A stretch of 64,000 nucleotides of DNA from an uncultured Anaeromyxobacter sp. (GTDB taxonomy: Bacteria > Myxococcota > Myxococcia > Myxococcales > Anaeromyxobacteraceae), in assembly GCA_903874275.1 (NCBI GenBank), contig CAIQRS010000026.1:1-64000 (forward strand). Direction: 5' to 3'. The notes under the pieces are model-generated. The model was not told the DNA's origin, ran no database searches, and worked only from the letters and a program-made list of their open reading frames with translations. Made by a program: the position numbers and the translations under genes. Below, piece by piece: positions 19,259 to 39,004 of the stretch (position 1 is its first letter; the number at the start of each line of letters is the position of its first letter).

Positions 19259-19287
19259 CGGATAGGTCCTTTCGGTGGTGGTGAGGG

Positions 19288-19341: not shown

Positions 19342-19346
19342 GGACC

Positions 19347-20927: not shown

Positions 20928-22538
20928 TCAGGTATCGACGGCGCGAAGCGCTGGTGCCGTCCCAACGAACCGTACGAAAGCCATCGCCCGTGTCACTGCG
21001 ATGTTGAGCCGGATGTCGAGCTGCCCCAGCTCCCCCTCCGGCAGGTCGGCAACGATGATCGCGGGCCGCTCGAGCCCTTTCCATCTAAGGAACGTGTCGG
21101 CTACGAGGCTCGTCTCCATGGCTGGGTCATCGGCGCGGACGATCGAGTGGCGCCCGACCTGCGTTCGGCCGGGGATAGTGCCCTCCGCGAGCTGACCTCG
21201 TAGCGAGACGATCCCGATCTGCCCTACGTCGAGGCCGGCGGAGAGAAGTCGCTCCACCTCAGCGCCGACCTTGTCCGGCACCGACGTCAGGCTCGGAGCA
21301 ACTGCTACGCCAATCGTCCCGTCTGCGCGCGCCGCAGCGAGCGCGTCCGCGTCGAAGGGTTTGCCGAGGATCTTGTCAGAAAGCGCCCGAACGCCCGGCG
21401 GACCTCGTAGCTGCCGGGGTAGGGGATAGAAGGCCTTGAAGAGATCTCGCGGTGGCTTGCGGTCCGCCCAGAATCCTTGGCCAGGATCGTGGAAGGCGAA
21501 GAGTCGCTTCCCCTCTGCAAGGCTCGAGACCAGCACCCAGGCTTCGAACTGGAGGTCCTGCGCCTCGTCGACGATCACGACGTCCCAGGTGCGCTCGCAG
21601 AGGTCGGCTGCGCGACCAAACAACTCCCCCCAGGCGTCAACTCCAGTGATGACGGGGTTCAGTCGAGCGCCTCCCGAAGAGTCGACGAGACGTTTCGCAA
21701 GGCCACTGACTGTGACGACGTCAACGCCCGAGCCATCAAGCCGGGTAGATAGCCATTTCTGAAGGGGGACGGTGAAGCACAGGAGGAGCACCTTCTGCCC
21801 GGTTGCGGCGAGCCTGCGGGCGGCCTCCGCGGCGATGAGCGTCTTCCCGGAACCAGCCCCGCCCTGGACCAGCGCGCGGTCGTTCTCGAGTAGACCATCG
21901 AGAACCTCGACTTGGGTTCGGTCGAGGCCGAGACGTTGATCCGTCGCCTCCTTGGCCCGCGTGCCGAGGGCGAGGGATGGAACCCAGGTATCTCCCCAAA
22001 GGCGATGGAGAGCTTCGATCCATCGCCCTTTGGGCGGCCGAACCTCGGGCAGAGCACGTTCCATTACCGGAGGGAGCACAACTTCGAAATGAGGGAGCTC
22101 ACCCTTACCGATGACTAGACCCCTCAAGTTGTCCTGAGAGGGCTGGCTCTCGACGTAGGTATCGGGGAAACAAACCGCAGCCCCGTAGGCAGGCGGGGAA
22201 CAGTCGAGGTCTCGGAGCCTCAGCGACAGCTTGTTCGCGAATCCTGTCCCCTGTTCCAGGGGAGGCCCATCCATGAGCTTGCCGTTCTGAAACCAGCGAC
22301 CGTCACACTGCTCGACCCGCCCTCCCTTCACCTCGAGTACGAGTAACCCTCGGTCGGGGTGGGCGAGTACAAAGTCCCCCTCTCCCTCGTACTTGAAGGG
22401 GTCGCGAATCCGCAGCGAATGCCATCCGTACCAGCCCGCTGGCATGTGGTCCTTGAGGGCGGTCCAAACGGCCCGCTCCGCGAACGAGTCGGTGGGTCGG
22501 AAGCCGTCTCTCGGGTGAACGCCGGGGCTGGAAGCCAC
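20928..22538 (-). CDS. NERD-domain nuclease fused to SF1 helicase
   Basis: The 536-aa product has an N-terminal NERD nuclease domain with GEGDFVL (Asp 55) and LVLEVKGG (Glu 69, Lys 71), followed by a UvrD/Rep-type helicase. Walker A GGAGSGKT is at 226-233, with IVDEAQD near 321, FHDPGQGFW as motif III, and VTRAMAFVRFVG at the end as motif VI. The helicase part is short and lacks large insertions, as in the NERD-helicase proteins of many defence islands. It is on the minus strand and convergent with the previous gene. Probably a DNA-unwinding restriction or repair factor. Confidence 0.9.
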   Translation of the reverse strand: MASSPGVHPRDGFRPTDSFAERAVWTALKDHMPAGWYGWHSLRIRDPFKYEGEGDFVLAHPDRGLLVLEVKGGRVEQCDGRWFQNGKLMDGPPLEQGTGFANKLSLRLRDLDCSPPAYGAAVCFPDTYVESQPSQDNLRGLVIGKGELPHFEVVLPPVMERALPEVRPPKGRWIEALHRLWGDTWVPSLALGTRAKEATDQRLGLDRTQVEVLDGLLENDRALVQGGAGSGKTLIAAEAARRLAATGQKVLLLCFTVPLQKWLSTRLDGSGVDVVTVSGLAKRLVDSSGGARLNPVITGVDAWGELFGRAADLCERTWDVVIVDEAQDLQFEAWVLVSSLAEGKRLFAFHDPGQGFWADRKPPRDLFKAFYPLPRQLRGPPGVRALSDKILGKPFDADALAAARADGTIGVAVAPSLTSVPDKVGAEVERLLSAGLDVGQIGIVSLRGQLAEGTIPGRTQVGRHSIVRADDPAMETSLVADTFLRWKGLERPAIIVADLPEGELGQLDIRLNIAVTRAMAFVRFVGTAPALRAVDT

Positions 22539-23268: not shown

Positions 23269-25575
23269 ATGGTCAGTCTCGAGCAGTTTCACGCTGCATG
23301 CGCCGCGATCAACAAGACCCCCGATGACGAGAAGCGCGCCGCGATCGACGCGAGCGCCGAGACTCCACTCTTCATCGTCGCTGGCCCAGGGACGGGCAAG
23401 ACCACCTGCATCGTTCTGAGAATCCTGAAGCTCATCTTCGTGGATGGCATCGCGCCTTCAGGAATTCTGGCAACCACGTTCACTCGAAAGGCCGCTGCCG
23501 AACTTCGCTCTCGCGTTCTTGGGTGGGGCTATCAGATCCAGGGGGAGCTCCAGAAGGACGGAATTCTTGCGCCTCACGAGCGTGAGTGGGTCTCGCGACG
23601 CGACCTGAATCGGGTCGTCACGGGCACAGTGGACAGCATCTGCGAAGCAGTGCTTCGAGACTTTCGGGAAGCCGGTCAGCAGCCGCCGGTACTCATCGAT
23701 GAGTTTGTCGCTGGAACGTTGATGCTTCGTGCCGGCCTATTCGAGGATGAGCGTCACAAGGACGCAGACCTCGACGCCTTCCTCAAGAAGATCGCGGGGT
23801 CCTCAGGCTGGGGGTTCAACGTCGGAAGGAAGGCCAACCTTCTTCAGCAGATCTGGGACAGGCGCTACCAGGACCAGGTGAACTGGGACGCCTTCGTGAA
23901 GAAGGGCCCGAAAGCAGAGAGAGTTGCACGGGGCGTCGTTGGCGAGGCCATCGCCGCGTACGCCGGGGAGCTCCAGGAACGAGAGGTCGTGGACTTCGCT
24001 CTCCTGGAGCACGAGGTGTTCACTCGCCTGCGGGCCGGCAAGCTCGGGGAATTCACAAGGCAGCTGAAGGTCGTGCTGGTCGATGAATACCAGGACACGA
24101 ATCTGCTTCAGGAATCCCTGTACTTCGAGCTGGCTCGCGCGTGTGGAGGAGCCCTGACGGTTGTCGGCGACGACGACCAAAGCCTCTACCGATTCCGCGG
24201 AGCCGCAGTCGTCCTCTTCAGGGACTTCTCAAAGCGTTTCAAGAAGGTCTTCAAGTCGAGCCCCAAGACGGTGTTCCTGAAGACCAACTACCGATCTACA
24301 CGCAACGTCGTTTCATTCTCGAATCGCTACGCCCGCCTGGATGCTGGGTTCCAGTCTGAACGAGTCGCTTGCAAGCCGGAGCTCGTGACGCCCCGAACGG
24401 CCGAGCACGGGCTGCCTGTGTTGGGCCTCTTCCGAGACGATCGCGAGGAACTAGCAAAGGACCTAGCGAAGGTAGTTCGCGATGTCTTCCGTGGTTCCGG
24501 CTATCGCCTTCCCTCCGGAGAGGTGATCAAGGCGTCAGCCGCCGATGCTGACGTCGGGGACTGCGCACTGCTCTGCAGTAGCCCGCGGGAGTACTCGACG
24601 GGGGGAAAGGAGCGTCTTCCGCTACTTCTGCGCCAGGAGCTTCGAGCGCCTGCGCAGAAGGCGAAGCGCATCGAGCTCTTTAATCCTCGAGGTCAAGACC
24701 TGACGGAAATCCCTCTGGTCCGCCGGTTCGGTGGCGTCCTGCTCGAGTGCATCGACCCGAAAGCGGAAGTCCAGGGCTCCAGTGAATCGAAGCTCTTCTC
24801 CGACGTAGTGGAAGTGTTCACCGAATGGCGCGAGGCCACTGCCGAGCTATCCGGTCACAAGGACTTGGTAGCCTATGTGAAGGCATGGAGGAGCCGAAAG
24901 GCCCCGCGGGGTCTTGTCTGGCCTCGGTCGGTATCGGCCCTCGAGCTCCTCTACGGTCTCGTGCACTTCTTTCCAGAGCTTTACGACGATCCTGAGGGAC
25001 AGGTTTACCTCGAGGTCTTCACTCGCCAGTTGCAGGCTAGCCAGATGGTTGGAACCTTCGACGGAGACATCGTCGAAGATGCGAAGGACAACAGGACCTG
25101 GAAGTCCAAGCGCGAGCTACTGCGAGACTTCCTGGGGCCCATCGCAAGCGGAGCAGTGAAGGTCAACGAAGACCTCATGGAGCTCTTCCCACGCGATCGC
25201 CTGAGCGTCCTGTCGGTGCATCAGGCGAAGGGGCTCGAGTTTCCATTCGTCATTGTGGACGTCGGGTCAGACTTCAAGACCAACAGCGCGTCCCAGAGAT
25301 TCAAGCGATTTCCAGACAAGGGAGGGCCAGCTCACGCGCTCGAGGACCTCCTCTGGGAATACACGACGCTTGGCAAGCCCGCGCGCAAGCCTCGAGACAG
25401 GGCCTTCGACGATCTCTACCGCCAGTTCTTCGTCGCGGTCAGCCGACCCCAGCAGGTCCTGCTGCTCGCTGGCTTGAACGCGAGCCTCCCTGGTGGGCGA
25501 ATCCCCAATGTCGCGACCGGTTCTCGGAGAACCGGCGCGAACGGATGGGCCCCGATACCCTTCGTAAAGATCTAG
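23269..25575 (+). CDS. UvrD/AddA-like helicase 1
   Basis: Starting at ATG 23269 behind GGGAGGG the product is 768 aa (an ATG three bases earlier is also possible). Motifs of SF1A helicases are complete: AGPGTGKT at 38-45, VLVDEYQDTN near 270, GDDDQSLYRFRGA near 300, VHQAKGLEFPFVIVD near 652 and VAVSRPQQVLLL near 722. The downstream gene, 10 bases on, is a RecB/AddB-like nuclease, so the two likely form an AddAB-like pair. The gene is a paralogue of 31297-33681: aligned blocks include LATTFT-KAA-ELRSR-LG, DEYQDTNLLQE and GGALTVVGDDDQSLYRFRGA. A role in end-resection or defence is inferred. Confidence 0.92.
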   Translation: MVSLEQFHAACAAINKTPDDEKRAAIDASAETPLFIVAGPGTGKTTCIVLRILKLIFVDGIAPSGILATTFTRKAAAELRSRVLGWGYQIQGELQKDGILAPHEREWVSRRDLNRVVTGTVDSICEAVLRDFREAGQQPPVLIDEFVAGTLMLRAGLFEDERHKDADLDAFLKKIAGSSGWGFNVGRKANLLQQIWDRRYQDQVNWDAFVKKGPKAERVARGVVGEAIAAYAGELQEREVVDFALLEHEVFTRLRAGKLGEFTRQLKVVLVDEYQDTNLLQESLYFELARACGGALTVVGDDDQSLYRFRGAAVVLFRDFSKRFKKVFKSSPKTVFLKTNYRSTRNVVSFSNRYARLDAGFQSERVACKPELVTPRTAEHGLPVLGLFRDDREELAKDLAKVVRDVFRGSGYRLPSGEVIKASAADADVGDCALLCSSPREYSTGGKERLPLLLRQELRAPAQKAKRIELFNPRGQDLTEIPLVRRFGGVLLECIDPKAEVQGSSESKLFSDVVEVFTEWREATAELSGHKDLVAYVKAWRSRKAPRGLVWPRSVSALELLYGLVHFFPELYDDPEGQVYLEVFTRQLQASQMVGTFDGDIVEDAKDNRTWKSKRELLRDFLGPIASGAVKVNEDLMELFPRDRLSVLSVHQAKGLEFPFVIVDVGSDFKTNSASQRFKRFPDKGGPAHALEDLLWEYTTLGKPARKPRDRAFDDLYRQFFVAVSRPQQVLLLAGLNASLPGGRIPNVATGSRRTGANGWAPIPFVKI

Positions 25576-25585
25576 GAGCTCTGCC

Positions 25586-26761
25586 ATGGAACTGCAGACA
25601 CGCTCGAAGGTGTACACGCTGCCGTCATACAGCCTGACGGGAGACTTGCTCGGATTTCTCCGATGCGGACTCCAGTACCGGTACGGGACAGTTGGACAAT
25701 TGCCTTCGAGCCATCCGGTCCAGCTGTGGTTTGGGCAGTTCATCCACGGTGTACTCGAAGAAGGGTACCGCCAGTTTGACGCTGCAAGGCGAGGCGGGAA
25801 GGGTGATGCACCACCGTGGCCTGAACCGCGAGTGGCGGAGATATGCGACAGGGTGGAGAAGCGACTCGGAGCCCAGGGTCTTTTCCCTTGGAGCCACGAC
25901 CTCAAGGACCTCGGCCGCATGCGCGCCCAAGTAGCGCTGAACGACCTGGCCCCGGACCTCTTTCCCCTGGTTCACCAGGCCGAAGTGCGGCTCACGGGGG
26001 CCCGACGGCTCCCCGTGGAGAAGATTCAGAACAACTTCCGGAATGCCGATCGGTACGAGATGGTCGGAGTCGTCGACGTCCTGACGCACATGGAGCTCGG
26101 CAGTCCCCACCTTGCGAACAACCGCCTGGTGCGCCTGATCCTCGATGCACTCCCGGAGAACCTTCCGCCAAAGTTCGAGGTGATCCTTGATTACAAGGGG
26201 ATGAAGCGCCCGCCGTTCAAGACTTCCAGGGGGCCGCACTACTGGGACATCTACGGATGGCAGGTTCAGACGTATGCGCATCTCCGAGATGTCCAAGACG
26301 ACGAAGACCGCTATCCCGTAGTCGCAGGAGTGCTGCTTTACCTGAACGAGCTCTTTCCCACTTGGTCGGACGTTGGAGAGCTCCTTCGACAGAGCCGGAC
26401 CGGGCGAACCGACGTGCCAGTGACGTTCGACCCTGAGGCCGTTCGGGTTCTCAGAACGAAGCGAGCGCGAAGCGTTGCCTATCCGCCGCTCGCACCTATC
26501 GATTTCAGGTTGAAGCGGGCGGTTCGTGTCGTTCCGGTCGACAAGAACAGCATGAAGGAGGCCCTGGAGCGATTCGATGACGTGGTGGCCCGTATCGAGA
26601 CGTGCCACGGAACAGAGCGGAAGCACGGGCGGGTAATCGCGTCGTGGGAGCGGAATGCCATGGACGAGGGGACTTGTGCAGCTTGCGACTCCAGAACCTG
26701 GTGCCCGGATTTCACGACCGACATGCGGCCGCGAGTCCCGGGCGTGAAAGGATGGCCGTGA
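25586..26761 (+). CDS. RecB/AddB-type PD-(D/E)XK nuclease 1, Fe-S cluster type
   Basis: The 391-aa product is the partner of UvrD-like helicase 1, starting 10 bases after its stop. Nuclease residues can be read as MVGVVDVL and FEVILDYKGMK, an Asp in the (D/E)-x-K slot, followed by the Gln helix GWQVQTYAHL. Cys 27 (FLRCGLQYRY) and the C-terminal CAACDSRTWCP could hold a 4Fe-4S cluster as in Cas4 and AddB. It is a paralogue of 33691-34857, with the same spacing of all these motifs. Confidence 0.9.
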   Translation: MELQTRSKVYTLPSYSLTGDLLGFLRCGLQYRYGTVGQLPSSHPVQLWFGQFIHGVLEEGYRQFDAARRGGKGDAPPWPEPRVAEICDRVEKRLGAQGLFPWSHDLKDLGRMRAQVALNDLAPDLFPLVHQAEVRLTGARRLPVEKIQNNFRNADRYEMVGVVDVLTHMELGSPHLANNRLVRLILDALPENLPPKFEVILDYKGMKRPPFKTSRGPHYWDIYGWQVQTYAHLRDVQDDEDRYPVVAGVLLYLNELFPTWSDVGELLRQSRTGRTDVPVTFDPEAVRVLRTKRARSVAYPPLAPIDFRLKRAVRVVPVDKNSMKEALERFDDVVARIETCHGTERKHGRVIASWERNAMDEGTCAACDSRTWCPDFTTDMRPRVPGVKGWP

Positions 26762-26785
26762 GGAGAGGCTGACGCCCCCTCGGCA

Positions 26786-26800
26786 AGGAGGTCTACTCCT
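26786..26800. terminator. Short hairpin at the convergent gene ends
   Basis: AGGAG, GTCTA, CTCCT: 5-bp arms spanning the stop codon of the large minus-strand ATPase and 25 bases after nuclease 1. May act as a bidirectional terminator; weak. Confidence 0.25.
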
Positions 26801-29800
26801 CTAGGTCCTGCCACCCCACGTCAAACTGGAACTTCGTGATTCGCTCGGCTGGATTCTGAATGCGGTGGATGCAGAAATCGCCTGTCCGAGCCTGCTCAAC
26901 GACGTAAAGCCAGTACACATCGCCACGTCGCTTCGCCTCCTCCAATTGCCGAGGAGTCATGCCTACCCCGTCGCGTCCCCAGGGGGAATCAGATCCCTTC
27001 ACCTCGATGATCCGCAAGAGATTCGAATCGGAATCCCGGGACTCGATGTCGTAGCCCGGGTTGGTGGGAGGCTGAGGATCCGGGTGACGTCCCACAGACA
27101 GCTCGTACTCCATGACCTTCTCCATCGCTGCCAGGTCGACGGCCGATCTCCTGGCCTGCTGCGCCTCCTCCTGGTCGCCTGTGCCCTCGGACTTCGTCTC
27201 AGCATGACCAACGTACGACAGCAGTCGGTCCTTGCTAGCCTTCCTTCGATGTGGGGGGGGAGGAGGGGACATGCCCGACGGCAGATTCGCTCCGGGACTC
27301 GAACCCGTCGGCGAGCTTTCCCGCCGCTCAGGGTCGTTGGTGAAAGGACCAGGGGTGACCACGGGGTCAGTGGAGTTCGGTGCCAACAGGGGGGCAGGCT
27401 CAGGAGTAGCCGCAGAAGGCGCCGGCAGCGGGTTCGGCGGGTGCGAATCCAAACCCTCTGTCGACGATGCTGCCACTCCGACCTCAGAAACAGCTAACGC
27501 GTCTGGCGATGCAGCTCGTTCGGCAAAGCTGGGGAAGCCAAATTCGTCGAGCGCGATCGTCGCCAACTCCGAGGTTCCAGACGCCAGGACCTCCTTGAGC
27601 GCCGCTGCCAGAGGACCCGGCTCACGCTGAGGTGCCAACAGAAGTGACAGCTCTCGAGCGACGGGGGCCCAGGTCGAAGAGTCGGCATGCTGTCGAAAGA
27701 CAAGAACTGGGGTCCCGTCCCTGAATGTCAGAATTGCTGGAACCTCTTCTGCGTCGCTGAGACGCGTTCCGAACTTCATCGTGATCGACCACCGGGCCAC
27801 GATCCGACTCGACGGGACCATTCGCGGCGGCCAGTCAGACGGCAACGCAAGGCCGTGCGCATCAAGAAGGCGCGCAATCGGAACACGCAGCCGCATCAGA
27901 CGAGATTGCATCTCTGGATCGTCATCAGCCAAGTCGACCGGCTCGAGAACCTCCGAAGTCGCCGCCGCAGATAATGCTCGAGCGCCACACTGCAGTAGGG
28001 CGAGGTATACCGATTCGACTCGAGGGACGATATTTCGCGCGAGCCGCGGAAAGCGTTCCCGCAGACGATGCGAATCACCGATCAGCAAGAGCTCAGGTGA
28101 ACAGAGATAGCCCTCACCGTCGGGGATTACTCGTCGAGAGCGTAGCGCGTCGAACACAACGTCTGCCTTTGGACCAGTTAATGTTCCCAGGAGAGCTAGA
28201 GTGGCGTTAACTACCTCCGCGTCTTCGTCCGCGACCTTCGAGTTGGAGGGCAGGTACTGGGCGGCGACCTCATCGAGCACCGCCAGGCAGTCATTAGGCT
28301 CTGGCTCATCTCGCACGCCGAGCGCATCGAAGAGTTGTTGAAATTGGCGCAGATCACTACCTAGCCGCACGCGCCTCTTATGGAACGGATGATTTCCCCA
28401 GAAGACCTTTGAAGGTTGATGATACCGACCATCCGCGTATACCGTTGCCTGTCCTCGTAGGCGATTCAGATGGCGCACGGCGTTAGGTTCGGAAAGTCGA
28501 TCATGTAACGCCGAGTAAATGTTGGACGGTGCTGGCTCATTTCGCTGTGAGAGGTTCAGCAAGTGCTGAACGATGACCTCCAAGCTTGGGCTGAGCGCGA
28601 CCTTATGGGCCTTCAGGACCTCGGAACAGGATCGCTGAACTTGGACCGGAAGGTCGATGAAGGTTGCGGCGGTTGCGCAGATGTCTCGGTTGAAGGACGC
28701 GTGCAAGGCTGACCCGCGGAACCATCGGGTTCGATCTCCTTCAGCGGGCAGCCACGCTTCCTCGCTCAAGTCCCCAAAGAACGGCGCAAAAACCTCTACG
28801 CGACCAGCAATCTCCTTGATGATGAGTTGCATTGACGCGATCGACGCCTGTGTCGGTGGCGTCGCGGCGAGCGTGCGCAATCGATGTACGACGTCCATCA
28901 GGCGAGGCTGACACTCGACGCCCAGCCATCGATACATCTCGTTGACTACGGGATCCCGCTCGGCGTCCACGAATGGAACGTCACCTAGGGTGCTTTCGAT
29001 GCCCGATGACCAGAAGTAGACCTCGTCCGGTTGCCGGTATTCTCCGTCCCGACATCGAATGCACGGTGAGGAGGCAAGTAGGCTTCGAACGGAATCATGC
29101 TGCGAAAATTGTCCAAAATATCGGGCAAGTTGGTGGACAACGTCGGGACGTCGACCGAGATGATTCGCGTCTCGGAGGACTTTGACCACGTGCATCTTGA
29201 TGTACGGGACAAGATCTAGTGGCTCGGCACCAAGGGAGACAAGGAAGTCGGTGCCGATTCCGACCCCCTTCACGTCAACCAATCGTGCAACCCCTATGAG
29301 GTCTTCGAACCCGCTTGGAAGCGAAAGGTCGATCAGGCGTCCTCGGCCACCGGTCGTCGCAAATAGCGGCAACGCCGCAATCCGGCGATGCAGTCCGAGG
29401 TCATCGACTTCCGACCTCCGACCCTCGAGCCACGCGAGAATGGAGGGTGCGTCGAGAGCATTGCCGTCGATGGGGCGAGCCGCGAAGAATGCCTCAAGTG
29501 TGTCGACAGCGTCCCTCACGGAGAATGGACGAACGGCGCGCTCGAGTGAGGAAACTTCCCCGGCAGATTCGACCAGGTAGCCAGCGATCCCACCGAACAA
29601 CCGCAGGACATCATCCGAGGCCAGGCGCAGACGCCCGAGGGGCCAGAAGAACCCGTCATTCCCACGACCCAATGCGACTAGATCTAGGCGAGCGGGAAGA
29701 GTCTCGCGGAGGCTAGCAAGACAGGAACGGAGCCCGGGAATGTCCGAAGGGACCAATCCTCCAGGGAGTGCCGATGCATCGAGGCGCCGGTCGAGCGGCA

Positions 29801-31169
29801 CGGCAAGCAGTCGGTCCACAAGTGTCGCCCGGTCTAGAACTCCAACGTTGAGTTCCCGAAGGACTGCGAAGAATGGACGCAGGTCCTCGTGCACCAATTC
29901 GACGCCGACCTTTGCTAGGCATTGCGGTATCGGCGTGTTGGCGGATTCGACAAGAAAGACCCCGCGAGCTGACGTCCAGGCTTCTGACCTTGTCCACACC
30001 CATGGCTGACCAGAGGCTACGACTTTGATCCGTTGCCAGAAGGCTCGTTGCCACGAGGCAGCACCCTTCGAGGACGCAAGCGACGAGAGAGCTCCCAGCA
30101 ACTTCCAAAACCCAACGGGCCCGAGAAACGCTCGTACCCGGTCCGCCTCTTCAGCCAGAAACTCGGCGGACCGCTCCAGTGCCGCAAGGTTCCACCGAGA
30201 AGCGTCGCTCGATCCGGAGAGGTCAACGTGCTTTCGCGACGTTGTGGGAAGAAAATCTGCGCTCACATGAAAGGGCAGACCGGTCCCTTGCTCCGTTGGA
30301 AGAAAGGCGAACAGCCGTCCCGCCGTATCGGCCCCTCGAAGAAACGCGATCCGGATCTTCGGGGTGCGCTTGTTCTCGATGATGCCGGGAGCGTTAAGCC
30401 GGACCTTTTCGGCTTTGGCTGCGAAGTCGCTCTCGAGCACCAGCCAGGTCTCGTCCAATCCATCGCTCGTTCTGACGCGAACCGTAGTACCGAATGGCTC
30501 TCGGGTTACTTTCCACCTACCCGTGTGGTCATTGACGCGAACAGTCTTCGGATGAGTCAGGAAGAGCAGGTCATGGGGGAGCGTCGCACGCAGGTCGGCC
30601 CCGAAAGTCTTGTGGATGTCAGCGCCCACCGCCTTCACTTTGAGCTGGCGTCGCAGGTTGGACTCATCGCTTCGCGCCCAAGGCAAGATGAAGCGTGTTC
30701 GCTTCTCGCCTCTCAGCGGTTTGCACGCCGGACATTCTGGGTCGCCGCAAACAGAGATGCGCTCCTGCTCGGGCGCACCTTCGTCCACGATCCAATGATG
30801 ACCCTTCGAGATGATGTGGGGCTGATCGGTGACTTGATAAACGGCTGAGAATCCAACTCCAAAGGCTCCGATCGTTCCACCCTCATCCTGCTTTGCGCCG
30901 CCGGCGAGGATCCGGAAACTGTGGAAGTCGCAAACCGGCTTCTTGGGAGTACCGCCGCAGTCTTGCCCTTCGGCGTTGCCGCAGTCACTGAACTCTTCGT
31001 CGTTCTCGATGGTCAGGGCATCCGCCCCCACATCGAAAACGAGCTCACGCGCTCCGGCGTCGTGCGCGTTCTGTGTGATCTCCCGCGCGAGTGCTGGCGC
31101 TCCAGCCAACTCCCGGACTGCGTTCCGTAGATTCTTCAGATAATCGACGCTGCGGGAGATCTTGAGCAT
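26793..31169 (-). CDS. Sacsin/HSP90-like ATPase with C-terminal DUF3883 nuclease-like domain
   Basis: From ATG 31169 the product is 1458 aa. The first 200 residues form a GHKL ATPase of the sacsin type: LAREITQNAHDAGA (Glu 30, Asn 34, Asp 37), then IENDEEF and GAFGVGFSAVYQVTD as the Gly-rich lid. A Cys-rich insert (SDCG...DCGG...VCDF and CGDPECPACK) probably binds zinc. The middle 1000 residues are helical and unassigned. After a Pro-rich linker, the last 130 residues match DUF3883, a PD-(D/E)XK-like domain with GYDIESRD and RIIEVKGSDS. Such ATPase-nuclease giants occur in defence islands. It lies between two helicase-nuclease pairs and is transcribed opposite to them, 128 bases from the second. 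Confidence 0.88.
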   Translation of the reverse strand: MLKISRSVDYLKNLRNAVRELAGAPALAREITQNAHDAGARELVFDVGADALTIENDEEFSDCGNAEGQDCGGTPKKPVCDFHSFRILAGGAKQDEGGTIGAFGVGFSAVYQVTDQPHIISKGHHWIVDEGAPEQERISVCGDPECPACKPLRGEKRTRFILPWARSDESNLRRQLKVKAVGADIHKTFGADLRATLPHDLLFLTHPKTVRVNDHTGRWKVTREPFGTTVRVRTSDGLDETWLVLESDFAAKAEKVRLNAPGIIENKRTPKIRIAFLRGADTAGRLFAFLPTEQGTGLPFHVSADFLPTTSRKHVDLSGSSDASRWNLAALERSAEFLAEEADRVRAFLGPVGFWKLLGALSSLASSKGAASWQRAFWQRIKVVASGQPWVWTRSEAWTSARGVFLVESANTPIPQCLAKVGVELVHEDLRPFFAVLRELNVGVLDRATLVDRLLAVPLDRRLDASALPGGLVPSDIPGLRSCLASLRETLPARLDLVALGRGNDGFFWPLGRLRLASDDVLRLFGGIAGYLVESAGEVSSLERAVRPFSVRDAVDTLEAFFAARPIDGNALDAPSILAWLEGRRSEVDDLGLHRRIAALPLFATTGGRGRLIDLSLPSGFEDLIGVARLVDVKGVGIGTDFLVSLGAEPLDLVPYIKMHVVKVLRDANHLGRRPDVVHQLARYFGQFSQHDSVRSLLASSPCIRCRDGEYRQPDEVYFWSSGIESTLGDVPFVDAERDPVVNEMYRWLGVECQPRLMDVVHRLRTLAATPPTQASIASMQLIIKEIAGRVEVFAPFFGDLSEEAWLPAEGDRTRWFRGSALHASFNRDICATAATFIDLPVQVQRSCSEVLKAHKVALSPSLEVIVQHLLNLSQRNEPAPSNIYSALHDRLSEPNAVRHLNRLRGQATVYADGRYHQPSKVFWGNHPFHKRRVRLGSDLRQFQQLFDALGVRDEPEPNDCLAVLDEVAAQYLPSNSKVADEDAEVVNATLALLGTLTGPKADVVFDALRSRRVIPDGEGYLCSPELLLIGDSHRLRERFPRLARNIVPRVESVYLALLQCGARALSAAATSEVLEPVDLADDDPEMQSRLMRLRVPIARLLDAHGLALPSDWPPRMVPSSRIVARWSITMKFGTRLSDAEEVPAILTFRDGTPVLVFRQHADSSTWAPVARELSLLLAPQREPGPLAAALKEVLASGTSELATIALDEFGFPSFAERAASPDALAVSEVGVAASSTEGLDSHPPNPLPAPSAATPEPAPLLAPNSTDPVVTPGPFTNDPERRESSPTGSSPGANLPSGMSPPPPPHRRKASKDRLLSYVGHAETKSEGTGDQEEAQQARRSAVDLAAMEKVMEYELSVGRHPDPQPPTNPGYDIESRDSDSNLLRIIEVKGSDSPWGRDGVGMTPRQLEEAKRRGDVYWLYVVEQARTGDFCIHRIQNPAERITKFQFDVGWQDLEE

Positions 31170-31296
31170 GGTCGTTGGCGGGTGGGACACCGGGTTACTT
31201 CGTTCTCCGGGTAACATCGTCCTAAGATGCTCCCACGCTGCCGGACACGAAGTCATCCTGAATCCTGGCGATATCAGGTCCAGTTTCGAAGGCCCG

Positions 31297-33681
31297 ATGC
31301 CCATCCCGCAAGCAACCATCGCTCCCGACGATCTGTATCGCGCCATTCAGGCTACGGGCGCCTATCCTCCGGACCCCGAGCAGAAGAAAGCAGTGGAGCA
31401 CCACCGTGACACTGGGGTGTTCGTCGTCGCTGGGCCCGGTACCGGAAAGACGACCTGCCTTGTCGCACGGGTTCTCAAGGTCCTGTTCTGCGATGGCGTA
31501 CCTCCGGTTGGGGTCGTAGCGACGACCTTCACCGTTAAGGCGGCCGAGGAGCTTCGGTCGCGTATCCTCGGTCTGGGATTCGAAGTGACCAGGCGGCTCA
31601 TCGCTGATCAGGCCCTCACTCCGGAACAACGGGCGTTCGCGTCCGGAATCGACGTGAACCAGGTATGGACGGGGACTCTGGACTCACTCTGCGAAGAGTT
31701 GCTTCGCGACCATCGCCCACCGGGAGGCTCGCCACCCGTCCTTGCGGACGACTTCGCCAGCAAGACCATCATGCTGAGGGAAGGGCTGCTCGACGGTCGT
31801 AGGTTCGACGATCCGGCGTTGCAGCGAATGCTTCTCCGACTCCATGGGCCTTCCGCCTTCGGGTTTCACATTGGACGGATGGGCGACCTGCTTCTCCAAC
31901 TGTGGCAACGGCGCCACATGGACTTGGTTGACTGGCAAGGGTTTCTGCAAGCTGGAAGTCCGCAGGAGAAGACCGAGAAGGCAGTCGCGAACACGGCCCT
32001 CTCTCGCTACGGGGCCGATCTACGAAAGCGTGGACTGGTTGACTTCACACTTCTAGAGGCAAGTCTCCTGGACCTTCTGAAGGCGGGCGCCCTGAAGAGC
32101 TACACCGACGGGCTCCGCGTCCTCCTGGTTGATGAGTACCAGGACACAAACCTCCTGCAGGAGCAGATCTATTTCGAGCTCGGGAAGGCTTGCGGAGGAG
32201 CACTCACGGTTGTCGGGGACGACGACCAAAGCCTCTACCGCTTCCGTGGCGCAACGGTCGACCTGTTCAGCAACTTCGAGGCGCGTTACCTCCAGCGATT
32301 CGGGAAGGCCGCGCGGAAGGAATTCCTATCGATCAACTACCGATTCACCGACCCCATCAAGAACTTCGTGAACGGGTTTGCAAATCTGGACGCGAGCTTC
32401 AAGCAGGTCCGGGTGGCCGGGAAGCCGGCACTCTCCATCGGGGGGAGCCCGCGTCATCCTTACCCCGTACTCGCCATGTTCGAGCCGACGCTCGACGATC
32501 TAGCGACCAAGCTTGCGACGTTCCTGAGCGACGTCTTCCAGGGGAACGGCTTCAGCCTTCCCAGCGGAGACGTCATCATTCGAGATCCGCAGGATGGCGC
32601 GATCGGCGACTGTGCATTGCTGGCCAGCACGCCAGGTGAGCGGGGAAACTCGGCCAGACGGAAGGATGGCACGTACGGGCCCGGAGCAGAGCGCTTGCCC
32701 CTCAGGCTCAAGGAAGAACTTGCCGCCCTGCCGACACCAATCGAGGTCTTCAATCCTCGCGGCGAGGACATCACAGCGAGAGAGCTGGTCCAAGTGACGG
32801 GTGGCTACCTCGCCGAACTCATCGACCCAACCTCCCGCGTGCAGGATGCGATGAAGCTTCCCGGGGACGTGGCCCAGACGTTGAGGGAGTGGCGTGACGT
32901 TGCCATCGCCCACCACGGGAGCATGGCCCCGCAATCCTTCAAGGACTACGCGCTGGGATGGGCACAGAGAAGTCACCAAGTAGCCGGGCAGTCGGCGGCT
33001 CATGGAAAGGCAAAGGCGTGGCCCCGCAATAGTTCGGTCCTGGAGTTGGTGTATGGAATTGCACACTACTTCCCTGAATTTCACGATGACCCCGAGGGCC
33101 AGCTCTACCTCGAGGTGTTCGCGAGACAGCTCACAGCTGCGAGCCTGGTGGGCGATTTCGGTGGGGAACTGGTCCACGATTCAGGGAACCAGAAGTTGAG
33201 CGACTACTCCGTCCAGGAACTGCTGCGCAACTTCCTGGTCCCCATCGCGTCGGGCCTGGTGACCGTCAATGAGGAACTCATCGAGTCCTTTCCCAGGGAT
33301 CGGCTTAGCGTGCTTTCCATTCATCAGTCCAAGGGGCTCGAGTTTCCGCTGGTGATCGTAGACGTAGGTTCATCGCTCAAGACGAACCACCAGGCGCATG
33401 CGTTCAAGCGATACCCAGTTGCCGGTTCGACCGCTCACAGTCTGGAAGACCTGCTGCGTCCTCACTCTGCGGGACTCCAGCCAACCGCGAGAACCCCCGT
33501 GGATAGGACGTTCGACGACCTGTACCGCCAGTACTTCGTAGCGTTCAGTCGCCCGCAGGACGTGCTGCTTCTGGTGGGTTTAGAGTCGACGCTTCCGGGG
33601 CGGATTCAGAACGTGGCCACTGGCTGGTCTCGCTCCGGGCAGTGCGCCTGGGTACCGACGGCTCCATTCGTACGGATCTAA
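31297..33681 (+). CDS. UvrD/AddA-like helicase 2
   Basis: From ATG 31297, with AAGG upstream, the product is 794 aa. SF1A motifs: VAGPGTGKTT near 46, LLVDEYQDTN near 276, GDDDQSLYRFRGA near 305, IHQSKGLEFPLVIVD near 680 and AFSRPQDVLLLVG near 750. It is the paralogue of helicase 1 at 23269, similar over the whole length with differences in the 2A/2B insertions (for example a longer loop around SARRKDGTYGPGAERLPL). It is followed 9 bases later by its nuclease partner and then by the queC operon, so it may be the first gene of a long plus-strand transcript. Confidence 0.92.
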   Translation: MPIPQATIAPDDLYRAIQATGAYPPDPEQKKAVEHHRDTGVFVVAGPGTGKTTCLVARVLKVLFCDGVPPVGVVATTFTVKAAEELRSRILGLGFEVTRRLIADQALTPEQRAFASGIDVNQVWTGTLDSLCEELLRDHRPPGGSPPVLADDFASKTIMLREGLLDGRRFDDPALQRMLLRLHGPSAFGFHIGRMGDLLLQLWQRRHMDLVDWQGFLQAGSPQEKTEKAVANTALSRYGADLRKRGLVDFTLLEASLLDLLKAGALKSYTDGLRVLLVDEYQDTNLLQEQIYFELGKACGGALTVVGDDDQSLYRFRGATVDLFSNFEARYLQRFGKAARKEFLSINYRFTDPIKNFVNGFANLDASFKQVRVAGKPALSIGGSPRHPYPVLAMFEPTLDDLATKLATFLSDVFQGNGFSLPSGDVIIRDPQDGAIGDCALLASTPGERGNSARRKDGTYGPGAERLPLRLKEELAALPTPIEVFNPRGEDITARELVQVTGGYLAELIDPTSRVQDAMKLPGDVAQTLREWRDVAIAHHGSMAPQSFKDYALGWAQRSHQVAGQSAAHGKAKAWPRNSSVLELVYGIAHYFPEFHDDPEGQLYLEVFARQLTAASLVGDFGGELVHDSGNQKLSDYSVQELLRNFLVPIASGLVTVNEELIESFPRDRLSVLSIHQSKGLEFPLVIVDVGSSLKTNHQAHAFKRYPVAGSTAHSLEDLLRPHSAGLQPTARTPVDRTFDDLYRQYFVAFSRPQDVLLLVGLESTLPGRIQNVATGWSRSGQCAWVPTAPFVRI

Positions 33682-33690
33682 GGAATATCC

Positions 33691-34857
33691 ATGCCGCTCT
33701 CCGTCAAGAAGCCCATCTACTCGCTCCCAGCGTACAGCCTGACAGGCGACCTCCTCAGCTTCCTCCGGTGCGGGCTGCAATACCGTTACCAGCGGCTCGG
33801 ATCCCTCCCGTCATCTCGCCCCGTACAGTTGTGGTTTGGCGAGTTCATTCACGGTGTGATGGAGGAGGCGTTCCTCCGTTATCGTGACCAGGTGGCTGCA
33901 GGGCAGCCGCCTGCATGGCCTTGGCCCAAGGCCACCGTCGAAGCCATTTGCGACCTGGTCAAAACGCGCCTCAAGGCGAGAGGACTGGAGGCTTGGGCAC
34001 CGAACATCCGGCAGCTCGGCTACGAGCGCGCCGAAGCAGCGGTTCAGGACCTTGGGCCCCATCTATTCCCGATCGTGGCCGAAGCCGAAGTTCGGCTGAC
34101 TGGCTCGCGTCCCATCCCTGCCATTCCGACGGCCCTGCAGTTTCGCCGAGCAGACCGCTACGAGATGGTTGGTGTCGTCGATGTAGTGACGAACGTGAAG
34201 TTGGTCGACCCTACGGTCGCCACAAACCCTATTGTAAAGCTGATTCAAGCTTCGCTGCCCGCGGGTCTGCCGGCCGAGTTCGAGGTAATCGTCGACTACA
34301 AGGGCGTGCGACGTCCTCCGGCGAACTCGCCTCGGTCGAAGCTGTGGCAGCAATACGCCTGGCAGATTCAAACGTACGCCTCGCTTCGGGCAGCCCAGCC
34401 CGGAAGTAAGCCGGTAGTGGCAGGGGCTCTTCTCTACGTAAACGAGATCAGACCAACCCGAACGGACTGCTACTTGCTGCGCCGCGAGGTCCGCTCCAAT
34501 CAAACTGACGTGGTACCGGTGCCAGGAGGTGAGGACGATCTGGAACTGCGTCGCCGGTGGTCGAAGGGGCAGGCTCCGCAGTTCAGTCACGAATTCAGGC
34601 TGGCACGAGCACTCCGCGTCGTTCACGTGGACCCACCAGCTGTGGCAACCGCTCAGGTCGCGTTCGACGGCGTCGTCCGAGACATCGAAACCTGCCGAGG
34701 AACGGAAGCGCACGGAGCCACGATACTGGCGTCTTGGAACTGCAATTCAACGGAGCAGGCGACCTGCGTCGTGTGCGACCAGCGGACCTACTGCCCGGGG
34801 TACAAGTCGACCTACGCAGCCCAGTTTGGAAGTGTGCCGACGCTCCCAACCAGGTGA
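33691..34857 (+). CDS. RecB/AddB-type PD-(D/E)XK nuclease 2, Fe-S cluster type
   Basis: The 388-aa product is the paralogue of nuclease 1: FLRCGLQYRY at the start, MVGVVDVV, FEVIVDYKGVRRPP with Asp in the (D/E)-x-K slot, AWQIQTYASL as the Gln helix, and CVVCDQRTYCPGY as the C-terminal cysteine cluster. It starts 9 bases after helicase 2 and ends 135 bases before queC. Together the pair should form an ATP-dependent helicase-nuclease. Whether it acts on unmodified foreign DNA as part of the 7-deazaguanine system is an inference from position. Confidence 0.9.
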   Translation: MPLSVKKPIYSLPAYSLTGDLLSFLRCGLQYRYQRLGSLPSSRPVQLWFGEFIHGVMEEAFLRYRDQVAAGQPPAWPWPKATVEAICDLVKTRLKARGLEAWAPNIRQLGYERAEAAVQDLGPHLFPIVAEAEVRLTGSRPIPAIPTALQFRRADRYEMVGVVDVVTNVKLVDPTVATNPIVKLIQASLPAGLPAEFEVIVDYKGVRRPPANSPRSKLWQQYAWQIQTYASLRAAQPGSKPVVAGALLYVNEIRPTRTDCYLLRREVRSNQTDVVPVPGGEDDLELRRRWSKGQAPQFSHEFRLARALRVVHVDPPAVATAQVAFDGVVRDIETCRGTEAHGATILASWNCNSTEQATCVVCDQRTYCPGYKSTYAAQFGSVPTLPTR

Positions 34858-34992: not shown

Positions 34993-35682
34993 GTGTCCAA
35001 GAAGGCTGTTGTTCTGCTCAGTGGCGGCCTCGACTCCACAACCGCGCTAGCTATCGCAAAGTCTGAGGGCTTCGAGTGCTACGCGCTGTCGTTCCGGTAC
35101 GGGCAACGCCACGCCGTCGAGCTCGAAGCAGCGCAACGGGTGGCCAAGGCGCTAGGCACAGCCCAGCACATCATTGCCGGAATCGACCTGCGGCAGTTCG
35201 GCGGTTCAGCGCTGACGAGCGACATCCAGGTCCCGAAGGACCGTTCGGCGAATGACATGTCTGGCGACATCCCGGTGACTTACGTGCCGGCCCGTAACAC
35301 GGTCTTTCTCTCCTTCGCACTGGCCTGGGCCGAGGTGCTCGGCTCGAGCGATGTGTTCATCGGAGTGAATGCGCTGGACTACAGCGGGTATCCCGACTGC
35401 CGGCCCGAGTACATCGAGGCCTACGAGCGTATGGCCAATCTCGCCACGAAGGCAGGGGTGGAAGGCCGCCAGCGGCTAAGGATCCACACGCCACTTATTG
35501 ATCTCAGCAAGGCCCAGATCATCGAGCGGGGCCTTGCGTTTGGCGTCGACTACGGCCTCACCAGTTCCTGCTACGACCCGTCGCCGGCTGGCGTTCCCTG
35601 CGGGCGGTGCGACTCATGTCATTTGAGGCTGAAGGGCTTTCGAGAACTTGGCCTCATCGACCCGGTTCGGCCCGCCGCGTAG
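34993..35682 (+). CDS. queC: 7-cyano-7-deazaguanine (preQ0) synthase QueC
   Basis: The best start is GTG 34993 behind GGAGGTAG, giving 229 aa. The ATP-pyrophosphatase loop [10 protein letters not shown] is at residues 8-17. The C-terminus has the family zinc site [17 protein letters not shown]. QueC turns carboxy-deazaguanine into preQ0 with ammonia and ATP. It is the first gene of the queC-queE-small-queD-folE2 run on the plus strand. No QueF is present to reduce preQ0, so preQ0 itself is the likely product, as in DNA-deazaguanine (Dpd) systems. Confidence 0.96.
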
Positions 35683-35687
35683 ACACC

Positions 35688-36329
35688 GTGGGATATTCGG
35701 TCAAAGAGGTCGTCTACACGCTTCAGGGAGAGGGCGTGAACGCGGGCAGGCCGGCTGTCTTCCTGCGCTTTGCTGGGTGCAACCTGTGGACCGGTCGAGC
35801 TGCGGACCGCGAGCTGGGCCCCGGGAGCTGCTCCCGGTGGTGCGACACCGACTTCGTTGGAGTGGACGGGGAGGGCGGGGGGCGCTTCCCCGGCCCAGCG
35901 AAGCTTGCCAACCAGGCGGCGAGGACCTGGGGGGAGAGACGCGGCCCTCGGCTCATTGTCTGCACGGGCGGAGAACCGCTGCTCCAGCTCGACACCCCTC
36001 TCGTCGATGAGCTCCACGCGCGGGATTTCGAGGTCGCCATCGAGACCAATGGCACGCTTCCAGTCCCCCGCGGTGTCGACTGGGTCTGCGTGAGCCCCAA
36101 GCTCGGAGGCGAGCTCAAGGTTCGTTCGGGGAGCGAGCTCAAGGTCGTGTACCCACAGGTCGGGATCGACCCGAAGTCCTTCGAGTCTCTGGACTTCAAG
36201 CACTTCCTCTTGCAGCCACTGGATGGCCCTGACCGCGACCAGAACACTGGCGAAGCCCTCCGGTTCTGTCTCGCGAATCCTCGGTGGCGGCTCAGCCTCC
36301 AGACGCACAAGCACCTTCGTATTCCTTGA
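35688..36329 (+). CDS. queE: 7-carboxy-7-deazaguanine synthase QueE (radical SAM)
   Basis: GTG 35688, five bases after the queC stop, gives 213 aa; no clear Shine-Dalgarno is seen, so translation probably depends on queC. YTLQGEG and FLRFAGCNLWTG open the radical-SAM barrel and CTGGEPLLQ follows. The cluster-binding cysteines read C-x16-C-x3-C (GSCSRWCDTDF). The related long-loop QueE type uses C-x14-C-x2-C, so this spacing is odd; the DNA reads TGC TCC CGG TGG TGC. The enzyme makes CDG from the QueD product. Function should be retained if the third Cys set still binds [4Fe-4S]. Confidence 0.94.
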   Translation: MGYSVKEVVYTLQGEGVNAGRPAVFLRFAGCNLWTGRAADRELGPGSCSRWCDTDFVGVDGEGGGRFPGPAKLANQAARTWGERRGPRLIVCTGGEPLLQLDTPLVDELHARDFEVAIETNGTLPVPRGVDWVCVSPKLGGELKVRSGSELKVVYPQVGIDPKSFESLDFKHFLLQPLDGPDRDQNTGEALRFCLANPRWRLSLQTHKHLRIP

Positions 36330-36612: not shown

Positions 36613-36981
36613 ATGACCATGGAAATCTTCAAGGAGTTCACCTTCGAGTCGGCTCATCGGCTTCCAAATGTGCCGCCCGGTCACAAGTGCGGTCGGCTCC
36701 ATGGCCACTCGTTCAAGGTTGAGCTCTGGCTGCGGGGGTCACTGGGGTCCGAGTCTGGCTGGGTCATGGACTTCGCCGACGTGAAGAAGGCCTTCGCGCC
36801 CTTCTACGACCAGCTCGACCACCACTACCTCAACGAGATCGCTGGTCTCGAGAACCCTACGAGCGAAGTCCTGGCGCGCTGGATCTGGGGGAATGTCCAC
36901 CCCCAACTCAAGATGCTCTCGAAGGTCGTCGTCCGGGAGACCTGCACCTCCGGATGCGTCTACGCAGGGGAGGATAAGTAG
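36613..36981 (+). CDS. queD: 6-carboxytetrahydropterin synthase QueD
   Basis: The 122-aa product starts at ATG 36613, immediately after the preceding stop. The family zinc ligands are His 15 (FESAHRLPN), His 30 and His 32 (GRLHGHSF), with the catalytic Cys 26 just before. It also has the [11 protein letters not shown] segment and the DHHYLN motif. It turns dihydroneopterin triphosphate into 6-carboxytetrahydropterin for QueE. The folE2 start follows without a gap, so the two are coupled. Confidence 0.96.
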
Positions 36982-37776
36982 ATGCACGACATCCAGAGTC
37001 TTCATGACGACCGGAACATCCCGCTCGACCAGGTCGGTGTGACCGACCTGAGCTATCCGATTACGGTGTACGACCGAGCCAAGAAGGAGCAAGGGACCGT
37101 CGCCCGCTTCACCATGTCGGTCAGCCTTCCGCATCACTTCAAGGGCACGCACATGTCCCGCTTCATCGAGGTCATCGAGGGGCATCAGGGACTCGTGACA
37201 ATGAAGACGCTCCCCGGCATCCTGAGGGAGCTCAAGCGAAAGCTCGATGCCGAACGGGCACGAATCGAGGTTCGGTTCCCATACTTCATGGAGCGCTCCG
37301 CACCGGTCTCGAAGGCCAAGGGGCTCATGGATTACGAATGCTCGTTCGTGGGTGAGGTCAATGGCGGAGAAGACGACTTCATCCTCAGCGTCCGGGTGCC
37401 GGTGACAAGCTTGTGTCCCTGCAGCAAGGCAATCAGCGACTACGGAGCGCACAATCAGCGGGGGCTCATAACGATCCAGGTGCGCAGCGCACGCGGGCCG
37501 AAGAGGCAGCGCAAGATCATCTGGATTGAGGAACTCGTGGAGATCGCCGAGCGATCGGCGTCAGCGCCGGTCTATCCGCTTCTTAAGCGCGCCGACGAGC
37601 GGCACGTCACGATGCAGGCCTACGACAATCCGGTCTTCGTCGAGGACATCGTTCGCAACGTGGCCGTTCAGCTTCAGAAGGACAAGCGGGTGGCATGGTT
37701 CACGGTCGAGGCCGTCAACGCGGAGTCGATCCACAACCACAGCGCCTTCGCCCGTACCACCTGGCAGCGTTCCTGA
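36982..37776 (+). CDS. folE2: GTP cyclohydrolase IB (FolE2)
   Basis: The 264-aa product, on ATG 36982 directly after the queD stop, has the FolE2 signature: DLSYPITVYDR, SLPHHFKGTHMSRF, TSLCPCSKAISDYGAHNQRG with Cys 145 and 147, and NAESIHNHSAFA near the end. FolE2 makes dihydroneopterin triphosphate from GTP using a broad range of metals, unlike the zinc enzyme FolE. It feeds QueD. Having its own committed first enzyme makes this locus a self-contained preQ0 factory. QueF, a smaller relative, was considered and rejected by length and motifs. Confidence 0.95.
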   Translation: MHDIQSLHDDRNIPLDQVGVTDLSYPITVYDRAKKEQGTVARFTMSVSLPHHFKGTHMSRFIEVIEGHQGLVTMKTLPGILRELKRKLDAERARIEVRFPYFMERSAPVSKAKGLMDYECSFVGEVNGGEDDFILSVRVPVTSLCPCSKAISDYGAHNQRGLITIQVRSARGPKRQRKIIWIEELVEIAERSASAPVYPLLKRADERHVTMQAYDNPVFVEDIVRNVAVQLQKDKRVAWFTVEAVNAESIHNHSAFARTTWQRS

Positions 37777-37782: not shown

Positions 37783-38994
37783 ATGCGGTTCGACCTTCAT
37801 CTCCGGCAGGACCTGAAGACCAAGGTCGACGACCTGGCTCGCCGCATGAGCGAGTGGGAAGAGAAGCCGCCTCTCGGTGACGAGGACAGGCGACGCCTCC
37901 GGGAAGCTATCGTCCCGTTCAACCACACAACCTCGGGTGAAGACTTCTCCGTCGGAGGCGTGGACGGAACAGGTGACTTTCCGTCGGTCTCCTATGCCGA
38001 CTCCTTCGTACACGTCGCGGTGGCGCAGGGAGTTCTATACGCGACCGATGCTCTGTCGGGGCTACGAGAAGTTGAGGCATTGGCGCCCGTGGTCGAAATG
38101 GTCTGGCTTCCGGAGGAAGAGGCACGCCGGAGGAAGGGGCTCGACGACGCTTTTGCTGCCCTTGCCGGGAGACCAGTCCAAGACGTCATCGCAACCTCGG
38201 ACTATCGGGTGCTCAAGGCAAAGTACGCGAGGGCGGCCCAGCCCGTCGAAGAACTCGAGGAACGGCTCATCCGGCCTCATGCATCGGACATGGCTAATCT
38301 CGGTATCCAGTTGCGATCGACTGCCGAGCTCGGCGCTGCGCTTCGTCTGATTGGACTCCGACCAAAGTATGTGCTCGTAGATGGCACTCTCTCACTACCG
38401 CTCGTGACGCGTTCCGGGGAGAGTCTCTTCTTTGAGCACTTGAAGCGGCTCTGTTGCGTATCTGCCCTTGAGCAGGACGTCGGATTCCTGGCGCTCTCCA
38501 AGTCTCACGGGGTCCGGTCCGTGGAGATGCTCGAGGAGCTCGCGGCTGAGAAGCTTGGCCTGCCTCCAGGGGGGCGTCCCGAGCACTGGTACCTTCGAAT
38601 TCCAACGCCGGAAGAGGACGGATGGGAAACACCGCTTGTTGAGGGGCGGACGCTTCCGCCCGTCGCGGCAATGACCTACTTGGTTCGCCTTCACCGCTCC
38701 ACGCCGGTGTTGCGACTCGACATGGCTCTTGCCTGGTGGCGACGTCATCTCCGCGGCACCAATGATGTCGAGACGCGACGGCTGGAGCAGCAGCTCTTCC
38801 AAGACCTTGATCGATGCAGTCACGACCAGCGCTGCTACGGTTACCCGTATCCGATCAAGGCCGGACACGATCGAGCATCGTTATCCGAGCCGGAGCGAGT
38901 CGCCTTGCGAAAGCAGATCGTGGATGCAGCTGTACGGGCGGGTATGAAGCCATCGCTCTTCCGGAGTGCTTCGAAGGCGACGCGACACGAGTGA
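37783..38994 (+). CDS. nurA: NurA-domain nuclease
   Basis: The 403-aa product carries NurA motifs in order: VGGVDGTGDFPSVS (Asp 61 near the start), VLVDGTLSLPLV near residue 199, VGFLALSKSHGV, the PVLRLDMAL segment and CYGYPYPIKAGHDRASLS at the end. NurA is a 5'-3' exonuclease that works with HerA; the HerA-like ATPase gene follows immediately (10 bases). The pair is commonly a repair machine in archaea and a defence module in bacteria. It sits between folE2 and the DpdA-type gene in the plus-strand operon, so it is a good candidate restriction or DNA-processing arm of the modification system. Confidence 0.88.
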   Translation: MRFDLHLRQDLKTKVDDLARRMSEWEEKPPLGDEDRRRLREAIVPFNHTTSGEDFSVGGVDGTGDFPSVSYADSFVHVAVAQGVLYATDALSGLREVEALAPVVEMVWLPEEEARRRKGLDDAFAALAGRPVQDVIATSDYRVLKAKYARAAQPVEELEERLIRPHASDMANLGIQLRSTAELGAALRLIGLRPKYVLVDGTLSLPLVTRSGESLFFEHLKRLCCVSALEQDVGFLALSKSHGVRSVEMLEELAAEKLGLPPGGRPEHWYLRIPTPEEDGWETPLVEGRTLPPVAAMTYLVRLHRSTPVLRLDMALAWWRRHLRGTNDVETRRLEQQLFQDLDRCSHDQRCYGYPYPIKAGHDRASLSEPERVALRKQIVDAAVRAGMKPSLFRSASKATRHE

Positions 38995-39004
38995 GGGAGA
39001 GGCG

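Follow-up and report, generated by a model that had tools for sequence, protein, structure and literature searches.

Gene content of the locus

The 64,000-nucleotide stretch analysed here (the window; positions 1 to 64,000 of contig CAIQRS010000026.1, assembly GCA_903874275.1, a 285-contig draft genome of an uncultured Anaeromyxobacter sp.) encodes two pairs of a helicase (family HEL) and a nuclease (family NUC), with a giant sacsin-like ATPase between them. Pair 1 consists of Hel1 and Nuc1, pair 2 of Hel2 and Nuc2. Directly downstream of pair 2 lie queC, queE, queD, folE2, genes for NurA-like and HerA-like proteins and dpdA; these genes, which were absent from a sequence-only reading of the DNA, give the locus its meaning and make HEL-NUC a candidate for the restriction arm of a Dpd-type 7-deazaguanine island. 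The pairs and the ATPase are encoded as follows.

23269-25575, plus strand: Hel1, UvrD/AddA-like superfamily 1A (SF1A) helicase of pair 1 (768 aa, ATG start; Pfam UvrD-helicase, E 3e-47)
25586-26761, plus strand: Nuc1, AddB/RecB-type PD-(D/E)XK nuclease of pair 1 with a four-cysteine motif of the iron-sulfur (Fe-S) type (391 aa; PDDEXK_1, 1.4e-9)
31169-26793, minus strand: sacsin/NOV_C ATPase of the TmtA (Tiamat) family (1458 aa when translated from the likely ATG; SACS 1e-13; NOV_C (DUF3883) 3e-15)
31297-33681, plus strand: Hel2, UvrD/AddA-like SF1A helicase of pair 2, first gene of an apparent operon (794 aa, ATG start; UvrD-helicase 3.4e-45)
33691-34857, plus strand: Nuc2, AddB/RecB-type nuclease of pair 2 (388 aa; PDDEXK_1, 1.9e-10)

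As the sequence-only reading had described, the pairs are intact paralogues running in the same direction, and the ATPase with its DUF3883 part lies between them in the opposite one. Hel1 and Hel2 are 52% identical (E 1e-234), Nuc1 and Nuc2 49%, and in either pair 9-10 bp separate the helicase gene from the nuclease gene. The full set of SF1/SF1A motifs is intact in both helicases, whose profile matches UvrD, PcrA and AddA. Both nucleases retain the RecB-family motifs FGxFIHG, GVVDV, E-x-I-x-DYKG and WQxQTYA, in Nuc1 as GVVDV, EVILDYKG and WQVQTYA together with C/TCxxC...C, and both have one N-terminal cysteine and a C-terminal C-x2-C-x5-C. Such cysteine sets hold the Fe-S cluster in AddB and Cas4. 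Across 39 NUC homologues His54, Asp164, Glu198, Asp202, Lys204, Gln225, Tyr229, Cys27, Cys359 and Cys362 are invariant, and Cys368 is conserved in at least 90%. A sequence search of the PDB with the nuclease gave no real match; only the fold search did. The AlphaFold2 model of Nuc2 (pLDDT 88) matched AddB (E 2e-5) and AddA best in Foldseek, followed by a Cas4-family protein, RecB and RecE. From motifs and predicted fold, HEL-NUC appears to be a mini-AddAB, composed of an SF1A helicase and an AddB-like Fe-S nuclease.

Pair 2 leads into a Dpd-type island

Downstream of Nuc2 the following genes were found.

34993-35682, plus strand: QueC (preQ0 synthase), island copy (PF06508, 3e-75)
35607-36329, plus strand: QueE (7-carboxy-7-deazaguanine synthase) (TIGR04508, 7e-93, over the cut-off)
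36613-36981, plus strand: QueD (PTPS family) (PF01242, 5e-35)
36982-37776, plus strand: FolE2 GTP cyclohydrolase (PF02649, 1e-96; NF010200 over the cut-off)
37783-38994, plus strand: NurA-like nuclease (NurA 0.0024, under the Pfam cut-off; conserved in island relatives)
38966-40780, plus strand: HerA-like translocase ATPase (DUF87, 2e-13; HerA models)
40830-42908, plus strand: DpdA with an N-terminal DUF6884/DpdC-like domain (NF041059 DpdA, 417 bits; cut-off 200)
42956-44914, plus strand: 652-aa protein without a Pfam match (hhalign E 7e-5 to family alignment A3)
44861-45784, minus strand: second protein of the tRNA-guanine transglycosylase (TGT) fold (PF01702, 4e-23), adjoining the Hel308-like helicase
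45778-48165, minus strand: Hel308-like SF2 helicase with an HHH domain (48-53% identity in loci L095, L097, L101 and L118)
48229-48786, plus strand: helix-turn-helix (HTH) protein (cluster 28; tblastn with relatives, E to 1e-39; HTH_3 in the L095 homologue)
48567-51137, plus strand: DEAD/DEAH helicase of the island (41-51% identity in relatives)

From Nuc2 to the 652-aa protein all genes lie on the plus strand and are mostly closely spaced. QueC, QueD, QueE and FolE2 make preQ0, DpdA exchanges guanine in DNA for preQ0 and DpdC yields ADG (PMC12839542, PMC6884629, PMC11888242). DpdC is present only as the N-terminal domain of the dpdA gene product (PADLOC DpdC, 9e-13, residues 12-183). A second QueC is encoded elsewhere in the genome (contig C257), which is consistent with a que set dedicated to the island. 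The G+C content is 0.58-0.65 across the island and 0.66-0.70 in much of the sequence just upstream. Searches with tblastn gave no window match at 1e-5 for the Enterobacter DpdD-K proteins, and the DpdB proteins of relatives gave none outside other named genes. Judged from its gene content, the pair 2 locus is thus a Dpd-type 7-deazaguanine island without the known restriction genes dpdD-K and without dpdB, and the defence-type setting that the sequence-only reading had proposed for the pairs is borne out to this extent.

The NurA assignment is backed by a 38-kb Picosynechococcus plasmid (L228), which has its own gene annotated as NurA and whose order NurA-HerA-HEL-NUC matches the window. The 652-aa protein is probably a divergent form of a 570-660-aa island component (cluster 26), a distantly related family present in all window-type islands, and its N-terminal part could be nuclease-like. 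The second TGT-fold protein is conserved at the same place in all window-type islands.

HEL-NUC co-occurs with DpdA

Among 49 genomes recovered via NUC or HEL rather than via DpdA, 42 encode DpdA, including myxobacteria in which pair and dpdA are far apart, compared with none of 14 control genomes. In a class survey of 147 genomes DpdA was found in 16 and HEL-NUC in eight, all eight of them DpdA-positive (Fisher p=2.9e-9); dpdA lies away from the pair in six of the eight. A ninth genome (G042) with a very divergent HEL-NUC beside its own dpdA was scored as negative. The same was seen on plasmids, where 4/4 with NUC have DpdA, whereas only 32 of 72,556 match DpdA (p=3e-14). Both the Fisher and the hypergeometric values assume independent genomes, an assumption that related genomes violate. 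Further, NUC was found in three of 392 Planctomycetota, each time as a DpdA-HEL-NUC triad and one of them newly found (G723), and in none of 368 random genomes from the class of Caballeronia, of which one has DpdA. Where HEL-NUC and DpdA are on the same contig, they are within 10 kb of each other in 35 of 37 cases, with a median gap of 2.4 kb. The dependence runs in one direction. It is common for a genome to have DpdA but no HEL-NUC (at least 7 of the 16 DpdA class genomes, and also random genome G511), while HEL-NUC without DpdA is rare and hardly seen outside archaea. Such a pattern would be expected if HEL-NUC does harm where the mark is missing.

Related islands

Short peptide patterns of the nuclease family, run against 84,980 species genomes, gave at least 80 loci, about half of them from Methanobrevibacter and its kin. 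Most or all of the window module was found in a proteobacterial metagenome-assembled genome (L095), Noviherbaspirillum (L097), Desulfosporosinus (L098), Chthoniobacteraceae (L101), Singulisphaera (L118), Clostridiales (L107, L220, L221) and on the Picosynechococcus plasmid, and each of these seven relatives, which belong to several phyla, has a single pair per island. Shorter forms are DpdA-HEL-NUC, with gaps of 8-18 bp or overlaps of 4 bp between dpdA and HEL, and DUF6884-HEL-NUC-DpdA with overlapping DUF6884 and HEL genes. Poribacteria have NurA-HerA-DpdA-HEL-NUC, and in Proteobacteria and Actinomycetes HEL-NUC lies beside dpdC-dpdB-dpdA-dpdB-que. Many HEL-NUC/DpdA islands lack dpdD-K, and islands without the dpdD-K restriction operon are already on record (PMC11888242). 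HEL-NUC and dpdD-K do not strictly exclude each other: homologues of dpdJ/K or dpdF/E/H adjoin the pair in L099, L121, L115, L139 and L107. A survey for DpdF at a loose threshold was swamped by RecQ-type helicases, and only its high scores are usable.

Single loci showed further variation. The Singulisphaera nuclease gene is in two parts (L118:10001-12354) with an insert of about 1.3 kb that contains a 335-aa open reading frame (ORF). A Halobaculum plasmid (L230), from a haloarchaeon, encodes a distant HEL-NUC beside QueC, FolE, QueE, QueD and a DpdA-like protein of 968 aa; a DEAD helicase of 1854 aa is encoded close by, and this locus may overlap the BRIGADE systems. Generic UvrD matches in viral contigs were mostly unrelated helicases; only the viral-labelled contig IMGVR_UViG_3300006094_000039 (L009, L010) was informative, with two HEL-NUC pairs that belong to widely separated clades and of which the more divergent adjoins DpdA.

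The two pairs are old and the ATPase is a probable passenger

Trees of the nuclease, of the helicase and of both concatenated placed the two window pairs inside the clade of window-type islands, which also contains actinobacterial pairs. Pair 2 forms a group with L095 and L097 (bootstrap 100, SH-aLRT 99) and pair 1 falls outside; forcing the window pairs together costs 27 log-likelihood units (approximately unbiased (AU) test, p=0.0026). The sequence-only reading had raised a recent local duplication as an alternative, to be recognised by homologous loci with only one pair. The relatives do carry one pair, but a recent tandem duplication is rejected by the trees and the AU test. The DNA itself also points to old copies, since the only long direct repeat in the locus measures 159 nt at 77% identity and lies inside the helicase genes. 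Two full pairs in one locus were found in the window genome alone among 51 NUC-bearing genomes; G187 and G188 have two pairs each, at separate places. A tree of NurA, HerA and Hel308 does not tell which pair is native; pair 2 is favoured by its place in the operon. A search around pair 1 for the remains of another island found none. Pair 1 is probably an additional, older pair that stems from the clade of window-type islands and was retained next to the passenger gene tmtA.

The ATPase ORF starts at 31346 at its greatest length. The PADLOC model PDLC03969 (TmtA) matches it over the full length (1035.6 bits, residues 62-1516), which places the protein, by sequence, as a divergent member of full length in TmtA (Tiamat), a known family of single-gene type. 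Its N-terminal 389 aa, used as query in the class survey, found no relative in the other 146 of the 147 genomes, though seven of them have HEL-NUC, and among related islands a TmtA homologue is close to the pair only in Noviherbaspirillum (L097; 25% identity). TmtA was therefore rejected as a system component and is treated as a passenger between the pairs, a position that is not conserved.

A proposed restriction arm and its alternatives

We consider it probable that the locus is a Dpd-type modification-restriction island in which HEL-NUC, as the restriction arm, would degrade unmarked DNA. According to this model, QueC, QueD, QueE and FolE2 would supply preQ0, and the DpdC-DpdA fusion would put preQ0 in the place of some guanines of the cellular DNA and probably hydrolyse it to ADG. 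The two-subunit mini-AddAB would then unwind and degrade DNA without the mark. It would probably load at ends, or else where a partner, for instance NurA-HerA or the 652-aa protein, has broken the DNA. In this island type its helpers would be NurA-HerA, the Hel308-like helicase and the DEAD helicase. Pair 2 would be the operon pair, and pair 1 may widen the target range.

Several observations weigh against this model. AddAB-type enzymes degrade DNA from ends, and the first cut may be made by a different nuclease (the 652-aa protein or NurA). HEL-NUC is not a simple replacement of dpdF/E/H or dpdJ/K, as homologues of these adjoin it in some loci. Six archaeal genomes have HEL-NUC and no match to NF041059. 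In Methanobrevibacter (L131, L145, L160 and others) HEL-NUC occurs without a DpdA match and with conserved genes for Rad50-like, Mre11-like and HerA-like proteins and an MrfA-like helicase nearby, a neighbourhood that suggests a role in DNA repair in methanogens.

The chief rival, which we regard as rather unlikely, is that HEL-NUC serves the modification itself, either by opening DNA for base exchange or by repairing breaks or stalled forks in 7-deazaguanine-containing DNA. The operons coupled with DpdA would suit such a function, as would the repair enzymes among the AddAB/UvrD relatives, the Rad50/Mre11/HerA-like neighbours in Methanobrevibacter and the pairs unlinked to dpdA in several myxobacteria. 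On the other hand, the DpdA genomes without HEL-NUC described above do without the pair, and dpdCAB, described as the modifying component, contains no such helicase-nuclease pair (PMC12707154). Also, phages use a DpdA of their own to modify their DNA (PMC6884629), yet NUC is absent from 50,697 phage records; modification therefore does not require the pair. Both this absence and the one-sided dependence argue against a modification or repair function but do not settle the question. That HEL-NUC is an ordinary repair helicase-nuclease merely riding in defence islands is, in our judgement, very unlikely: it is near AddAB in fold and sequence, and UvrD and Cas4-like genes have been described as an unfused operon outside a defence context (PMC5704561), but NUC is rare in the genome samples and yet accompanied by DpdA in 8/8 class genomes and 4/4 plasmids, and this co-occurrence persists even when the genes are unlinked.

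The sequence-only reading had proposed that the two pairs around the giant ATPase may form an undescribed defence system. The genes are neighbours with intact active sites, and the Noviherbaspirillum island also has a TmtA-family gene. All relatives, however, have one pair per island, the pairs go with DpdA, pair 2 continues into the que-dpd operon, and the ATPase, searched by its N-terminal 389 aa, is found in no other class genome and belongs to a single-gene family. The proposal is highly improbable.

If the restriction model holds, a repair machine would have been reused as a self/non-self nuclease. HEL-NUC is a concrete and testable candidate for the cutter, a small pair that tracks DpdA in bacteria, some archaea and plasmids, and the simplicity of three genes would allow DpdA-HEL-NUC to be rebuilt in a laboratory strain. 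We give about an even chance to a broader view, in which DpdA-HEL-NUC, in its smallest form a translationally coupled operon of three or four genes, is a minimal type of restriction-modification of wide phylogenetic range, with a 7-deazaguanine self mark and a mini-AddAB instead of a classical restriction enzyme, to which the window would add an older second pair that differs in specificity or partner.

Other defence-like genes in the window

Upstream of pair 1 the window contains further defence-like genes.

16617-18098, minus strand: DUF2779/Cas4-like nuclease
19275-20273, plus strand: ArdC-N/IrrE-like protein
20928-22538, minus strand: NERD-UvrD-like helicase

At 211-2714 an OLD/AbiEii-like AAA ATPase is directly followed by a 317-aa protein without a Pfam match, a possible two-gene defence unit.

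Comparison with known systems

The sequence-only reading had asked whether the ATPase belongs to a known system such as DISARM or Dnd. A known family was indeed found, since the ATPase fits the TmtA model and the pairs lie in a Dpd-type locus, but this is neither a DISARM nor a Dnd locus. For DISARM (DrmA-C, DUF1998 protein, methylase) no match was listed among the window proteins scanned. Gabija GajB models matched only shared UvrD motor stretches, and no GajA was present among the proteins scanned. Tiamat, as a single-gene family, stands outside the pair system.

BREX-related capture (BRC) shares a HerA/FtsK translocase with the window and, in a subset, a TGT, but is built on PglZ, DUF6079, STAND and DUF4007, with no HEL-NUC described (PMC12839542); none of these four was named among the window genes scanned with Pfam and PADLOC. 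BRIGADE, a Dpd-like system of halophilic archaea, likewise combines 7-deazaguanine genes with helicases and occasionally a PD-(D/E)XK nuclease, but is defined by YprA-like helicases (PMC12458937), none of which was identified in the window, where HEL is of the UvrD type. Pairs and fusions of UvrD with Cas4-like (pfam12705) proteins comprise the same two domain families and are also described in the unfused two-gene form; the fusions, however, go with Type III restriction-modification or Dcm, and no TGT or queuine is mentioned there (PMC5704561).

With AddAB and RecB, HEL-NUC shares the UvrD-type SF1A motor and the AddB-type Fe-S PD-(D/E)XK nuclease fold. AddA, however, has a C-terminal nuclease domain and AddB an inactivated helicase in addition to its nuclease, whereas HEL is without a nuclease domain and NUC without a helicase domain, and the two are short separate genes (768-794 and 388-391 aa) linked to DpdA.

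In the literature searched the pair belongs to no named system, as the sequence-only reading had supposed, and HEL-NUC is probably an unreported restriction module of Dpd-type systems, though the main Dpd literature may mention the pair. With Dpd (dpdA-K) the window shares a DpdA above the NCBIfam cut-off, a DpdC-like domain, preQ0 genes within the island and several helicases; in place of homologues of dpdB and dpdD-K it has NurA, HerA, HEL-NUC, a second TGT and the Hel308-like and DEAD helicases.

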